The notes beneath the pieces were generated by a model, which was not told the origin of the DNA, did not search any database, and saw only the letters and a list, made by a program, of their open reading frames with translations. Positions 27,935 to 55,715 of a stretch of 64,000 nt of DNA are shown here, piece after piece; within the stretch, counting starts at the first letter, position 1, and each line of letters begins with the position of its first letter. The position numbers and the translations under genes are program-made. This DNA is from Mesoplasma sp. JKS002658 (GTDB lineage: Bacteria > Bacillota_I > Bacilli_A > Mycoplasmatales > Mycoplasmataceae), in assembly GCF_023566355.1 (NCBI RefSeq), contig NZ_JAKNSW010000002.1, forward strand, positions 124,001 through 188,000. Reading direction: 5' to 3'.

Positions 27935-28666
27935 CTAGTCGAAGTGATTTTCTAATTCTTTAATGATATCACTGCTCGTAAAGTGTAAATATCGAGCTGT
28001 GGTTTCTATTTTTGAATGACCCATAATCATGCTTACAATCTTGATGTTTGCCCCCTTACGAATTAAATTAGTACAAAAAGATCTTCTGAAAGTATGAGGA
28101 GTTACTCAATTTGGTCAATAATCTTTAATTAGTTGATAAATCTGTTTCTTACTATATTTATTATATTTTTCAAAATTAATATTATTAATTGGTTTTAAAA
28201 TTGGTATTTCTCGATATTTCATTCCTTTACCAAAGATAATTAAAGAATTTTTATTCTTATTGTACTTTAATTGTTTTAATTCAGAAATTCTTATACCGGT
28301 ATAATAAAGAATTTTGAATAGATCTTTAACTTCTTGTTTTTTTACTGTTTCCACTATTGTCTCAAACATTTGATTATTGATTGTATTAAAGAAGACATTG
28401 CTTATTGAAGGTATTTTTATAGATTCAATTTCGTCTAAGAATTTACATTTACTATAACGTAAATAACTTAAAATAACATGCTTTTTAAATTGAACTGTTG
28501 CTGGTTTATATTTACTTACTTGTGATTTTAAATATTTTGATGTGTTGAATAAAGTGATCGTTTTTCCTCCTAAAAACTTAAAAAAATCGGTTAAAGCATA
28601 TCTGTAACTATAGATTGTGTTCTTTGAATAATTTTGTTTTTCTAAATATCTGATAAATTTTTCCAT
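27935..28666 (-). CDS. Tyrosine recombinase (Xer/integrase family), likely DNA invertase
   Basis: 243 residues, read through two TGA (Trp) codons near the C-terminus (reading TGA as stop cuts off half of the active site). A SAM-like N-terminal core-binding domain (1-90) precedes the catalytic domain. All catalytic residues are visible: R126 (T-G-I-R), K147 (F-G-K-G), H191-x2-R194 (P-H-T-F-R-R), H217 (M-G-H-S-K) and nucleophile Y226 (T-A-R-Y). The protein is short, like Xer-type and phase-variation invertases. It lies next to a methyltransferase segment bounded by inverted repeats with tyrosine-recombinase core-site form, so it is the obvious candidate to invert it (inference). Start GAGG-CGCC-ATG. 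Confidence 0.9.
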
Positions 28667-28759
28667 GGCGCCTCATCGATAGAATAGGAAAATTTATGCA
28701 TTTTTTCCCATCATCTTTTCTTAAAATAATTTTTTTAGCTTTTTAGGTAGAATATATTT

Positions 28760-29941
28760 CTAAAGAAATCTATAATGCATCTTATAGATTCAATTGATAT
28801 TTTTTAGTGAGATATTTGGCCTACCATTTTTATCTAAAACGCTGATAATTCCAGCGTTTGGATGCCGATCCTGCTTAGTGGTTAATGTAGCACTCAAAAT
28901 TGCGCAATTTTCTTTAAATTGACTTTTTTTGTTTTTATGTTTATAAATATCACGTTCTGTTTTACATTCGGAAAATAGTAGAGGATTGTTTTCATACATC
29001 TTTATTCTAGAACTTGTTCGACGAGGAATTGAATCGATAGCTTCGTGGTTATATTTCGAATTTTTATAGTTTGTTTTCAAAATTTTATTTAAATCTTTTT
29101 TAGGAAAATAAGTTAATCGGTCGTATTCTTCTTTTAGTGCTTTGGCTTCGGAAATAATTTTTTCTCTTAATTCGAGATTGCTTTTTTCTCGTTCTTTAAA
29201 GGTGTCAATAAAGTTAATTTTTGAACCTTCATAAACACTTAAAGCGATTACACGCTTTCTTTTTTGAGGAATTCCAAAATCTTCACTAGATAAAATATAA
29301 GTTTGTGTGCAATAGTTTAATTTTTTTAGTTCTTCTAATCATTTTTTATAGTTTTCAATATGTTCTGGGGAAAGAATATTTGTCACGTTTTCTAAGATTA
29401 AAAATTTGGGTTTAATATCTAAGGCATTTAATTCAATTAAGATTCTTTCAACTTCTCAAAGTAAACTTGATCTTGAACCCGATCCTTTGGTCATTCCTTG
29501 ACTCGGATGGTGCAAAGAACTAGCGGATGACAAATCTTGACATGGAAAAGAATAAGTTATTACATCAATATTTTCAGCGATGCCAATTAAATTTCTTCCT
29601 GTTATTTTGGTGATGTTACCTAGATTATTATTAGACACGTAACTTTCATATAAAAGCGAGACAAATCTATCACCTTTTTTAACTATTTTTTGAATATCAA
29701 TTGATTCTTTGGAATCTAATGAATGAATAAAATTCGATAAATAATCAATTTTCTCTTCTAATGATTTCTTGGACTTGTCTTTTTTATTTTTCATTGCATT
29801 GTATGAAATATTAGCAAAGCAATCTCATTCACTTGTTGCCACTATTTCAAAATCAAAATTTTCAATTAATTCAGAGAGCGTTTCAAGTGCTTTTCTTTGT
29901 GAACCAATTCCAGCAAATGCCTCAAAAACTTTAAATTTCAT
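28760..29941 (-). CDS. C5 cytosine DNA methyltransferase, truncated in this orientation (OFF state)
   Basis: 393 residues before TAG at 28762-28760, joined across TGA (Trp) codons. C5-MTase motifs seen: I (F-A-G-I-G, 9-13), E-W-D at 38-40, IV with catalytic Cys 134 (F-P-C-Q), VI (L-E-N-V, 183-186), VIII (G-I-P-Q-K-R-K-R, 223-230), then a target-recognition region. Motifs IX and X, needed for fold and activity, are missing: the frame runs through inverted repeat 28763-28790 (encoding I-Y-K-M-H-Y-R-F-L) and stops. They lie on the + strand beyond the other repeat (30151-30330), in the right frame. Inverting the segment would give 452 residues. ATG 29941 lacks a good RBS; in-frame ATG 29980 lies just after TAGAAAGGGA and is an alternative start. 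No restriction enzyme partner is seen. Confidence 0.9.
28763..28790 (-). repeat. Inverted repeat, left recombination site
   Basis: A perfect 28-bp reverse complement of 30123-30150. Inside lies a 24-bp core: 9-bp arms AATCTATAA / TTATAGATT around the spacer GATGCA (read on the - strand). The identity ends sharply at both sides. It is part of the methyltransferase coding frame. Confidence 0.95.
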
Positions 29942-30122
29942 AATAAAATTATTGACTGATTTCTTTTGGAGAACAATCATTCCCTTTCTACGAAAAACTT
30001 TTATTTTGTTTACTGGATAAATTAATTAGGTTAAAAAAGAATTATTTTTCGAATTGTAATGATATGAAATGAAGGTAGAAATTTTTGAAATTTATCTGTA
30101 AAATGATAATTAGTTTTTTAGT

Positions 30123-52452: not shown

Positions 52453-52848
52453 GTGTTTGGAATAAATTCCAAAATAAAACATAAAAAACAGAACTTTTTA
52501 TTATTAATAGTTTTTTATCAAAACTTTTTCAAAATGAGAATATTATGTAAATGTGGTTGTTAATCACATGTTAATTTATTTCATAATTTTATACTAAATG
52601 TTGGGCGATAATTATATTTAAAATAATATTTTTGTCTTTGTGATATAAAACTCATTTTATAACTTGTTAACTATTTCCCTTAAAATTAAACGATTAAATC
52701 GTTCTTATCCATGTCCAATATTTAGTACCAAAGAACAGTTCTTTTCCCGACTGTTCTTTTTTTGTAAATTTTTAGTTTTAATATGAAACATGAAAATTAG
52801 TTAAAATAAGGTAGAATATAAAAAATAGTCTTGAAGAAGAGAGAAGCT
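52453..52848. other. Intergenic region after opp, no gene
   Basis: 396 AT-rich bases without a plausible gene. Seen: a perfect hairpin TTTGGAAT / ATTCCAAA just after the oppA stop (52456-52473, no T run), ATGTG / CACAT around 52545-52568, a small AACGAT / ATCGTT hairpin at ~52690, and a strong terminator at 52730-52763. A TAGAAT at 52812-52817 may be the -10 of the next gene. Confidence 0.6.
52730..52763 (+). terminator. Strong terminator before the FtsK-like gene
   Basis: A perfect 10-bp stem AAAGAACAGT / ACTGTTCTTT, 10-nt loop and a run of T. It lies ~280 nt after the oppA stop, so it may end a long 3' UTR or a small RNA. Confidence 0.85.
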
Positions 52849-54294
52849 ATGAACAAAAAAATTAAAGAGTTTGTTAGTGACACTGATCAGAGCACAGTGT
52901 TATCAACCAAAAACTACAACGAAAACCGGACGATTATTTTTGAAACTAATAAAAAGGTTCACAAGAGCGATTCAATTGCTTGAGTGGTCGGGTCAGTGAC
53001 CTTTTTCTTATTTTTAATTCTATCTGCAGGAAGGTTTTTAACCATCGGTGCTTTTTTTGACGATGTATTTTTCAACTTTATTTTCGGTTGATTAAAATAT
53101 CCTATCTATTTAGTCTTAATGTTTATTGACCTTTCGATTTTATTTGGTTTACAACTTAAGGCTAAAAAACGATTTTTAGGAATGCTACTAGCGCTTGGTT
53201 TAGCAGTTGCCTGAATTTGTTCTGCGGCTTTATTAATTGGTTTAAAAGTTCACCACTTAGATGGGATTAAGTTATGACAAAAAAACATTTTTGTTAAATC
53301 AATGACGATTTATACTAGTAACTGGTTAGAAAACAGTCTTTTTAGTAGTAAGTTTAATAATGTCAGCGGTCACGCCAAGTTCTTAATTTACCCATTATTT
53401 GGTTATCTTAACTTATATCAAGGTGGTGGCTTTCTTGGTAATTTCTTTGCAGGAATTTTTGCTTATACTTCACTTCCGATTAGTTTAGTCTTGGGTGTTG
53501 TTGCTTTGTTTTTAAGTATTATCTGGACTTTAACTGGAAATCCACTTTTCTTATTCTTGCCTAAAGCAAAAAGAAAAGGAAAAAAAGTGAGGGTGCTTGC
53601 TTTAAGAAGTAATAACAATCCTCACGATCAAAAAAAACCGTTGTTTAATTTAACTAACCATAAAGACTCATCTACTAAAGTGTTATCTTGAGCAGAAGAA
53701 TCAGAAGCGCCTTTACTAGATGTTGTTTCGCCTCCTGCTCAAGAATCACCATTGGTAATTAAAAAGGATTTTAGTGAAATTAATTGAAATGAACCAGAAG
53801 ATGAGTACGAGACTTTTACGATGTTTGATGAGGAACAAGATATTGATCTAAAATATCATCAAGTTGAACCAACACAAACCTTAATAGACACTGGTGTAAA
53901 AATTGATCCTCAGCTTGGGGTCTATGGTTTTAAACCATTAAGAGAACCAAGCATGGAAACTTTTATAAACAATGATGGTCAAGAAGTTGATGATTCTTTA
54001 TTCTTTGAAGAAATTTTAAAACCATCTCTTGATGGAAAAACTCAAACAGATGGGATGGTTAAATCATTGGTTTCTCTTCCTGATTCTGTAAATTTAAACC
54101 AAAAAGATTTGTTGTACAAACAAGCATTAGCAGAAGTTTTAAAAACCAGAAAGGCTAGTGCCTCATTTTTAAAACGTCAGTTAAAGATTTCTTTTAGTGA
54201 AGCAAGTGAAATTATTAACCGAATGGAAGCAGAGGGTCTAATTGGTCCTGATAACGGTTGAAAAACCCGAGAAATCTACTATAAACCAAAATAA
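52849..54294 (+). CDS. FtsK/SpoIIIE-like protein lacking the ATPase motor
   Basis: 481 residues, joined across TGA (Trp) codons, ATG 52849 after AGAGAAG. The N-terminus has four membrane segments with the FtsK layout, ending G-G-G-F-L-G-N-F-F-A-G-I and a last segment near 215-235. An acidic linker (~240-415) follows. The C-terminus (419-481) is a good FtsK gamma domain: L-L-Y-K-Q-A, K-A-S-A-S-F-L-K-R-Q, M-E-A-E-G-L-I-G-P. In FtsK the ~400-residue RecA-like motor lies between linker and gamma domain; here it is absent and no Walker A is found. Usual length is 750-1000. The gene is otherwise undamaged. It could tether DNA at the membrane or division site (inference). Confidence 0.85.
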
Positions 54295-54300
54295 AGTCGA

Positions 54301-54337
54301 AAAAAAATCAAACCAAAAGTAAAGGTTTGATTTTTTT
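54301..54337 (+). terminator. Terminator of the FtsK-like gene
   Basis: A perfect 14-bp stem with A tract and T tract (core ATCAAACC / GGTTTGAT), 9-nt loop. Confidence 0.88.
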
Positions 54338-54382: not shown

Positions 54383-54973
54383 ATGCAAATGGAACAAATT
54401 AGCTTAACTTGATCAGTGATAAACGATGAAAAAGCTGCTTTGACTTTTTTTAAGGAATTGGATCAAAAAGAAAAGAGTTTTAACCTTAATTTTCAAAAAT
54501 CAGATGGGTTTGAAGCGGGTTTCAAAGAAAGTTTTACTAACTTTAAAAATGATTCTGATTTAAAATGAGATCAAGTCCAACCTTTAGTAATTTGCTGATC
54601 ATTACGCTTAAACTTGAATAAACCAATCAAAGATATTTTAATTGATAAAACTGATAGTATTAGTGCAAGTTACGAACAATATATGAAAGAAGAAGATCAC
54701 TTTGATTATTCTTTGGTTGATGAAATTGTTAACCGTTTAAAAGAACTAATTATTGAAGTTTATGAAACTCATATCCCCTTTAATTTCAACGAATTGTTTG
54801 AAACTTTTTTTGATCAAGAAGAAAGCTTTGGTTTTGACTTATACCAACTTAATGCTACTAATACAAGTGAAGATGAAATTTTTATTATTGATGTTGATTC
54901 AGCACAAAGTAATGGGGTCTTTCCATTAATTATTGATGAAGTGGTTAAACGAATCAAACTTCGTCGACGTTAA
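54383..54973 (+). CDS. Conserved-looking acidic protein, unknown function
   Basis: 196 residues from ATG 54383 (TAA 54971), with TGA (Trp) at 54410, 54566 and 54596; ATG 54389 is an alternative start. Soluble, acidic, helical. The end is basic (V-K-R-I-K-L-R-R-R). No family recognised. The membrane-protein gene downstream begins 7 nt after its stop, so the two are likely co-transcribed. Confidence 0.7.
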
Positions 54974-54980
54974 GGTGTTT

Positions 54981-55715
54981 ATGAACAAAAGTGATTTAAA
55001 GAGTTATTTACATATCCAATCCAAGAAGTTTTCCAATACGCTTTTAATTAACCTAGTTTTTTTCTTGGGTTTAATGATTTTTTGAGCAATTAACCTTTAT
55101 TCTTCAATTAAAAATGTTAATAATTCCCGACCAAATCAGATTTTAATTTATGATGGTTTAGTTTTTTTTACAGTTTGAGTGCTTTACACAATAGTTAAAA
55201 ACTATCTTGGTTATTCCAAACTGCAACAATTGATTAAAATAGTTTCTCAAGATTATAATCTTGAAGTTTTGAGGTTGATTAATTTTCCCTTATATTGAAC
55301 CTTTTATGGTGGTTATTATCATTTAATCGAACAGGAGTTGAGTGGTTTAGTTCCTCCCCAATATCTGTTTCATCAATTGAAGGTAAAATCAAACTTGAAG
55401 CATTTAAATTGAAAATCAGTAGTTTTAATGCTTGCTCTTTTATTGAGTGGTTTGGGGTTTTTTCTTTCAATGGTAATTTATTTTCCGACCCTTAACTTCA
55501 AGAGTCATTGACAACTGGTTTTTACTCTTTGCCTTCTTCTTGTTTTTTGTTTAGGAGTTTTTTGTTTTCTTCTTCCTCGTCAAGTTATTTTAAATTTGAA
55601 GGTAAAATTAAACCAAACAGCCCAAATTAGTCAAGATGCCTATTTTAATAATAATCGTTATTTTGGTTTAACCAATACTTTAACTAAACTTTGAATTCCG
55701 CCTCTAAAACACTAA
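54981..55715 (+). CDS. Membrane protein, unknown function
   Basis: 244 residues (TAA 55713), with eight or so TGA (Trp) codons. Four membrane segments in two pairs (about 22-42, 55-72, 150-170, 180-200) separated by a soluble loop. No family recognised. It starts 7 nt after the gene before (RBS AAGGTG) and ends 17 nt before uvrC. Confidence 0.7.

Follow-up and report, generated by a model that had tools for sequence, protein, structure and literature searches.

FtsK couples cell division to the pumping of DNA, and the locus described here raises the question of what such a protein does once its pump is gone. The window, that is, the whole 64,000-nucleotide stretch analysed, comes from a wall-less bacterium that reads TGA as Trp, and its ftsK gene (52849..54294, plus strand) encodes a protein of 481 residues (P0001) that joins an FtsK membrane domain to an FtsK gamma domain with no motor in between. 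Read with code 4, the gene is a single frame ending with TAA at 54292-54294, while seven TGA codons interrupt it under table 11; an alternative upstream TTG start at 52831 would lengthen the protein by six residues. Between the lipoprotein gene and ftsK there is a terminator-like hairpin, recognized as a pattern only (52730..52759, plus strand), and directly 3' of the ftsK stop codon lies a hairpin with perfect 14-nt arms and a T run (54301..54337, plus strand), which was absent from the terminator-scan output and was found as an inverted-repeat pair (I5).

The N-terminal membrane domain (residues 1-262; 52849..53634, plus strand) contains four membrane segments, located on the Kyte-Doolittle scale at residues 43-61, 85-103, 112-130 and 211-229. 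It is 32-60% identical to FtsK proteins of the family and retains all of the 18 columns that are invariant among 19 family sequences. An acidic linker follows (residues 263-401; 53635..54051, plus strand), with 31 D/E and 11 K/R, sharing 33% identity with the linker of the same-genus sister. The gamma winged helix (residues 418-478; 54100..54282, plus strand) matches the Pfam FtsK_gamma profile PF09397 at positions 2-62 of 63 with 65.8 bits (cut-off 30.6, E 2.9e-18), and a phmmer search with the 481-residue protein matched FtsK gamma chains in the PDB, with a best E of 4e-6. In a single-sequence structure model of residues 409-481 (mean pLDDT 79.6, the wing being poorly modelled), the top structural matches are FtsK gamma domains (Foldseek E 0.025; VIA Z 7.9 and 7.7), although non-FtsK winged helices score nearly as high; the matches to Zalpha, PadR and Lrp domains (VIA, Foldseek) are ascribed to the common winged-helix fold. 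The core of the gamma fold is predicted to be retained. A model of the full protein, made from three sequences, is too poor for use (mean pLDDT 37.5).

The motor was searched for in the protein and throughout the genome. The 481-residue protein has no Walker A pattern and matches no Pfam model of the FtsK motor or of the alpha domain (PF17854). Genome-wide, FtsK_alpha PF17854 gives zero matches at E values up to 10, and neither profile searches nor tblastn found a second FtsK/SpoIIIE motor in the 4-contig assembly. A hidden second motor was considered and rejected, as the sole PF01580 match in the genome (18.7 bits, under the cut-off of 24) sits in the ATPase of an ABC transporter. When the sister's whole FtsK was compared with the genome by tblastn, only the ftsK locus was returned, with residues 3-397 and 831-900. 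A search for the alpha domain and for the motor found neither, so function as a DNA translocase is impossible. The original prediction, made from the letters of the DNA, had described an intact frame, a four-segment membrane domain, a C-terminal gamma domain and, between them, a missing RecA-like motor without a Walker A. All four points are borne out, by the 481 stop-free codons under table 4, by the Kyte-Doolittle profile together with the family alignment, by the PF09397 search, and by the Pfam and pattern searches, respectively.

Comparison with the sister genome (G001) identifies what is missing. There, a full FtsK of 902 residues (L022:7948-10656) lies between the same neighbours and comprises FtsK_alpha (432-534), FtsK_SpoIIIE with its Walker A (542-732) and gamma (834-894). 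The common gene order runs from ABC ATPases and a solute-binding protein through ftsK and two unnamed genes to uvrC, greA, TP_methylase and L21, the sister's neighbour genes having been paired by eye. Both proteins share this gene order, a membrane domain that is 59% identical (261 codons), linker motifs and a terminal gamma; in contrast, the sister has kept FtsK_alpha and FtsK_SpoIIIE with Walker A, and the two gamma domains are 33% identical. Gene order and sequence together make the two genes orthologous, and the 481-residue protein is an FtsK by descent. It aligns to the sister across residues 3-401 and 404-480. What it lacks is roughly the sister's residues 398-819, which hold the alpha and beta domains and the stretch leading into them. 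The scar of the deletion falls at residues about 398-414 (54040..54090, plus strand), where the sister has about 420 residues, starting from YQLPSLDLL. Repeats at the junction are limited to short, chance-like pairs, and no direct repeat brackets the scar.

The motor is otherwise almost universal in the family: PF01580 exceeds its cut-off in 59/60 family genomes, the sole exception being this Mesoplasma genome. Since the sister protein is full-length, 59/60 family genomes carry the motor and there is no second motor here, the motor was lost in this species, in frame; the loss is derived, not ancestral. The claim that this is a membrane protein with gamma and no DNA pump, by loss of the motor, is upheld by Pfam, by the sister and by tblastn. 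Among 298 genomes sampled evenly across the order, gamma exceeds its cut-off in 67 and PF01580 in 139. A comparison of the lists shows the motor in 65 of the 67 gamma genomes, the exceptions being this genome and G050, and only one of the 67, the present one, joins membrane domain and gamma in a short motorless open frame. The ftsK of G050 is broken, because its N-terminal piece carries an in-frame TAA and its gamma lies far off, split into two overlapping pieces in two frames. These remnants of G050, a member of another family of the order, are found at G050:C1, 142261-142444 and 1004561-1004815. The opposite arrangement also occurs. In genus g3, the FtsK of G013, G003 and G026 (L023, L024 and L025) stops just past the motor and is without gamma, and the fourth and last genome of the genus, G020, has kept gamma; this gamma loss is the reverse of the motor loss in the window.

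Serratia symbiotica and this code-4 bacterium belong to different phyla. In Serratia symbiotica SCc and STs, ftsK is cut to a small N-terminal portion, which the authors deem enough for division (PMC5013485). That case resembles ours as a natural loss of the motor, in a reduced, host-bound genome, and differs in that only an N-terminal bit survives, whereas here an internal deletion leaves linker and gamma in a code-4 host (PMC5013485). In E. coli, the N-terminal domain of FtsK assembles into hexamers at midcell by itself, in the absence of the translocase, but the cells form filaments and are less viable (PMC3870252). The FtsK-deltaC/FtsKN alleles of E. coli are likewise a translocase-free, hexameric membrane domain at midcell, but they are engineered, lack gamma and have reduced viability (PMC3870252). 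Bacillus subtilis SftA is another FtsK-family variant with one domain missing and is the mirror case, in which the membrane domain is absent and motor and gamma are kept (PMC4744071, PMC11790237). A naturally pump-less FtsK is thus known from Serratia symbiotica, and what is new is that an altered gamma domain is retained. Among the matches listed from literature other than subscription papers, none describes a mollicute FtsK that lacks the motor but has gamma.

The gamma domain itself has changed at the residues that matter for DNA reading. Residues S450, E451, E454 and N457 of the recognition helix (54196..54219, plus strand) are altered and, in an ungapped alignment to E. coli gamma, are equivalent to N1296, R1297, R1300 and E1303; the peptide RQFRIGYNR, residues 1289-1297 of E. 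coli FtsK (PMC5052618), anchors the numbering. Joint alanine replacement of N1296, R1300 and E1303 abolishes KOPS recognition (PMC2533119), and all three KOPS-reading residues are replaced here (N1296S, R1300E, E1303N). Among 56 motor-bearing relatives, which do not include the gamma-less G003, G013 and G026 or, from other families, G037, G039, G044, G050 and G055, the combination of N, R/K and D/E at 1296, 1300 and 1303 is found in 40, and nine have none of the three KOPS residues. At 1297, 55 of them have Arg and one has Lys. No acidic residue occurs at 1297 or 1300 in any of the 56, but this protein is acidic at both positions. Reading of the terminus via KOPS is therefore unlikely, to judge from the residues at these positions. 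R1289, the residue of the XerD salt bridge (PMC5052618), is kept as R443 and lost in nine relatives, so a XerD-type contact could still be made as far as sequence alone can tell.

Considering these data together, we propose that the protein is probably, though by no means surely, a septal membrane scaffold that works at the division site without a pump. A single in-frame internal deletion would have taken the alpha and beta motor after the split from the sister, and the shortened protein would still be made and inserted in the membrane. Its N-terminal domain may do the division-site job alone, through self-assembly at midcell and contact with the divisome, as in E. coli; FtsZ is encoded in the genome, so a ring should be available to join. 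DNA would no longer be pumped, and gamma would neither read KOPS nor serve XerCD, being either a relaxed remnant or the seat of a new, non-motor contact. Clearing of the chromosome from the division plane and its unlinking would rest on other factors. RecA is also encoded, so dimers and tangles can presumably arise and be handled by other means; its presence led us to reject loss of RecA as the cause of the motor loss. A clean internal deletion of the motor, with the membrane part kept, suggests that the latter is useful without the pump. The loss of the pump only, beside a motor-bearing sister, offers a ready test of the membrane domain alone in wall-less bacteria, in a setting in which FtsK is kept family-wide although XerCD is mostly absent.

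The same deletion might instead be a recent step towards the complete disappearance of ftsK, with a frame that is open for lack of time and a product that has no role, a reading to which we give a minor share of the probability. The loss is confined to one species, gamma has diverged, and FtsK is dispensable in the order, as indicated by the order-wide count of PF01580 and by the interrupted pieces of the gene in G050. The membrane domain, however, speaks against this reading. It differs from the sister's at 41% of positions, with codon position 2 changed least and position 3 most (0.18 and 0.57), and, averaged over 58 outgroups, it carries 17.8 unique changes, compared with 15.8 for the sister's domain. 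The distance to the common node is 0.364 here and 0.287 in the sister, a ratio of 1.27, against 1.57 for UvrC, 2.6 for GreA and 1.9 for RsmI, in control trees limited to genomes with the gene in the retrieved stretch (39, 9 and 8 taxa, respectively); the trees exclude G037, G039 and G050. Both members of the genus rank first and second of 62 in root-to-tip distance, so the speed of this domain is a trait of the genus and does not stem from the loss of the motor. The membrane domain is accordingly not accelerated relative to the motor-bearing sister or to UvrC, GreA and RsmI.

The history of gamma is different and bears on the same alternative. It has 21.0 unique changes here and 7.0 in the sister (other-family genomes being outside these counts), its codon positions 1 and 3 are altered alike relative to the sister (0.54 and 0.52), and its terminal branch is the longest of 58 (2.49), that of the motor-bearing G005 measuring 2.35. 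In the gamma tree, the protein does not cluster with the sister, which may reflect a long-branch error or a gamma from another source. Two counts of conserved columns come from different alignments: of 17 conserved columns, five are altered here and two in the sister, and of 23 conserved columns, 11 are altered here, five of these being gaps from the deleted motor end. If gamma drifted after the loss, 481 stop-free codons are unlikely by chance: in a substitution-only simulation with 14 neutral gamma changes after the loss, the frame stayed free of stops in 6/500 trials, and some 52 changes would fall in the membrane domain. Gamma also drifts with the motor present, as seen in the G005 branch and in the 9/56 relatives without the KOPS residues, so its changes here may predate the deletion; G031, G005, G002 and G023, motor-bearing members of the same family, score below this protein on PF09397. 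If gamma did drift first, the motor may have been deleted only recently, and the open frame would then be uninformative.

Rather doubtful, to our mind, is a passive tether from the septum to the chromosome or to another protein, in which the membrane domain would cluster at the division site and the charge-reversed helix of gamma would have a new target. If true, it would mean that the division and segregation jobs of FtsK are separable in nature and that its DNA-reading head has been reused.

It is improbable that the motor exists in the organism and was dropped from the contig by an assembly error. We have one draft assembly in 4 contigs, of one strain, and two genomes in the genus, but the junction lies within a 215-kb contig with the frame kept, there is no flanking direct repeat that could collapse, and an error would not create the acidic pair at 1297 and 1300, which is foreign to all 56 motor-bearing relatives. 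The assembly is 95.4% complete; the closed genome of the sister is rated only 94%, so a value of this size does not point to a gap. The absence of any other FtsK/SpoIIIE motor, and the retention of the motor by the sister and the rest of the family, agree with deletion in this species, as the comparison with relatives had been meant to decide.

Very improbable is an anchor at the septum for Xer or for the terminus, as the original prediction had suggested, with gamma still contacting XerD or KOPS DNA from the membrane: the gamma fold and R443 (R1289, the XerD salt bridge of PMC5052618) are kept and the genome has two tyrosine recombinases, but the KOPS residues are now S, E and N with charge reversed, both recombinases are far under the XerC, XerD and XerS equivalog cut-offs and lie beside methylation and restriction genes, and 50/60 family genomes are without a tyrosine recombinase match. 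No XerC/XerD or XerS was recognized in the genome at these cut-offs, and recombinase matches of any kind occur in 10/60 family genomes. Gamma, in contrast, is present in 57/60 (absent from G003, G013 and G026) and is therefore kept for a reason other than Xer; by this comparison, the usual reason of the family to keep FtsK is the pump.

One of the recombinase genes adjoins a cytosine methyltransferase gene in the window (27935-29980, both on the minus strand). The second (L038) directly adjoins a type I restriction specificity gene, an arrangement that hints at specificity switching. Two genes behind ftsK lies a membrane protein without a Pfam match over the cut-off, of 260 residues here (54933-55715) and 465 in the sister (L022:11400-12797), where it has a long Lys/Glu-rich tail.
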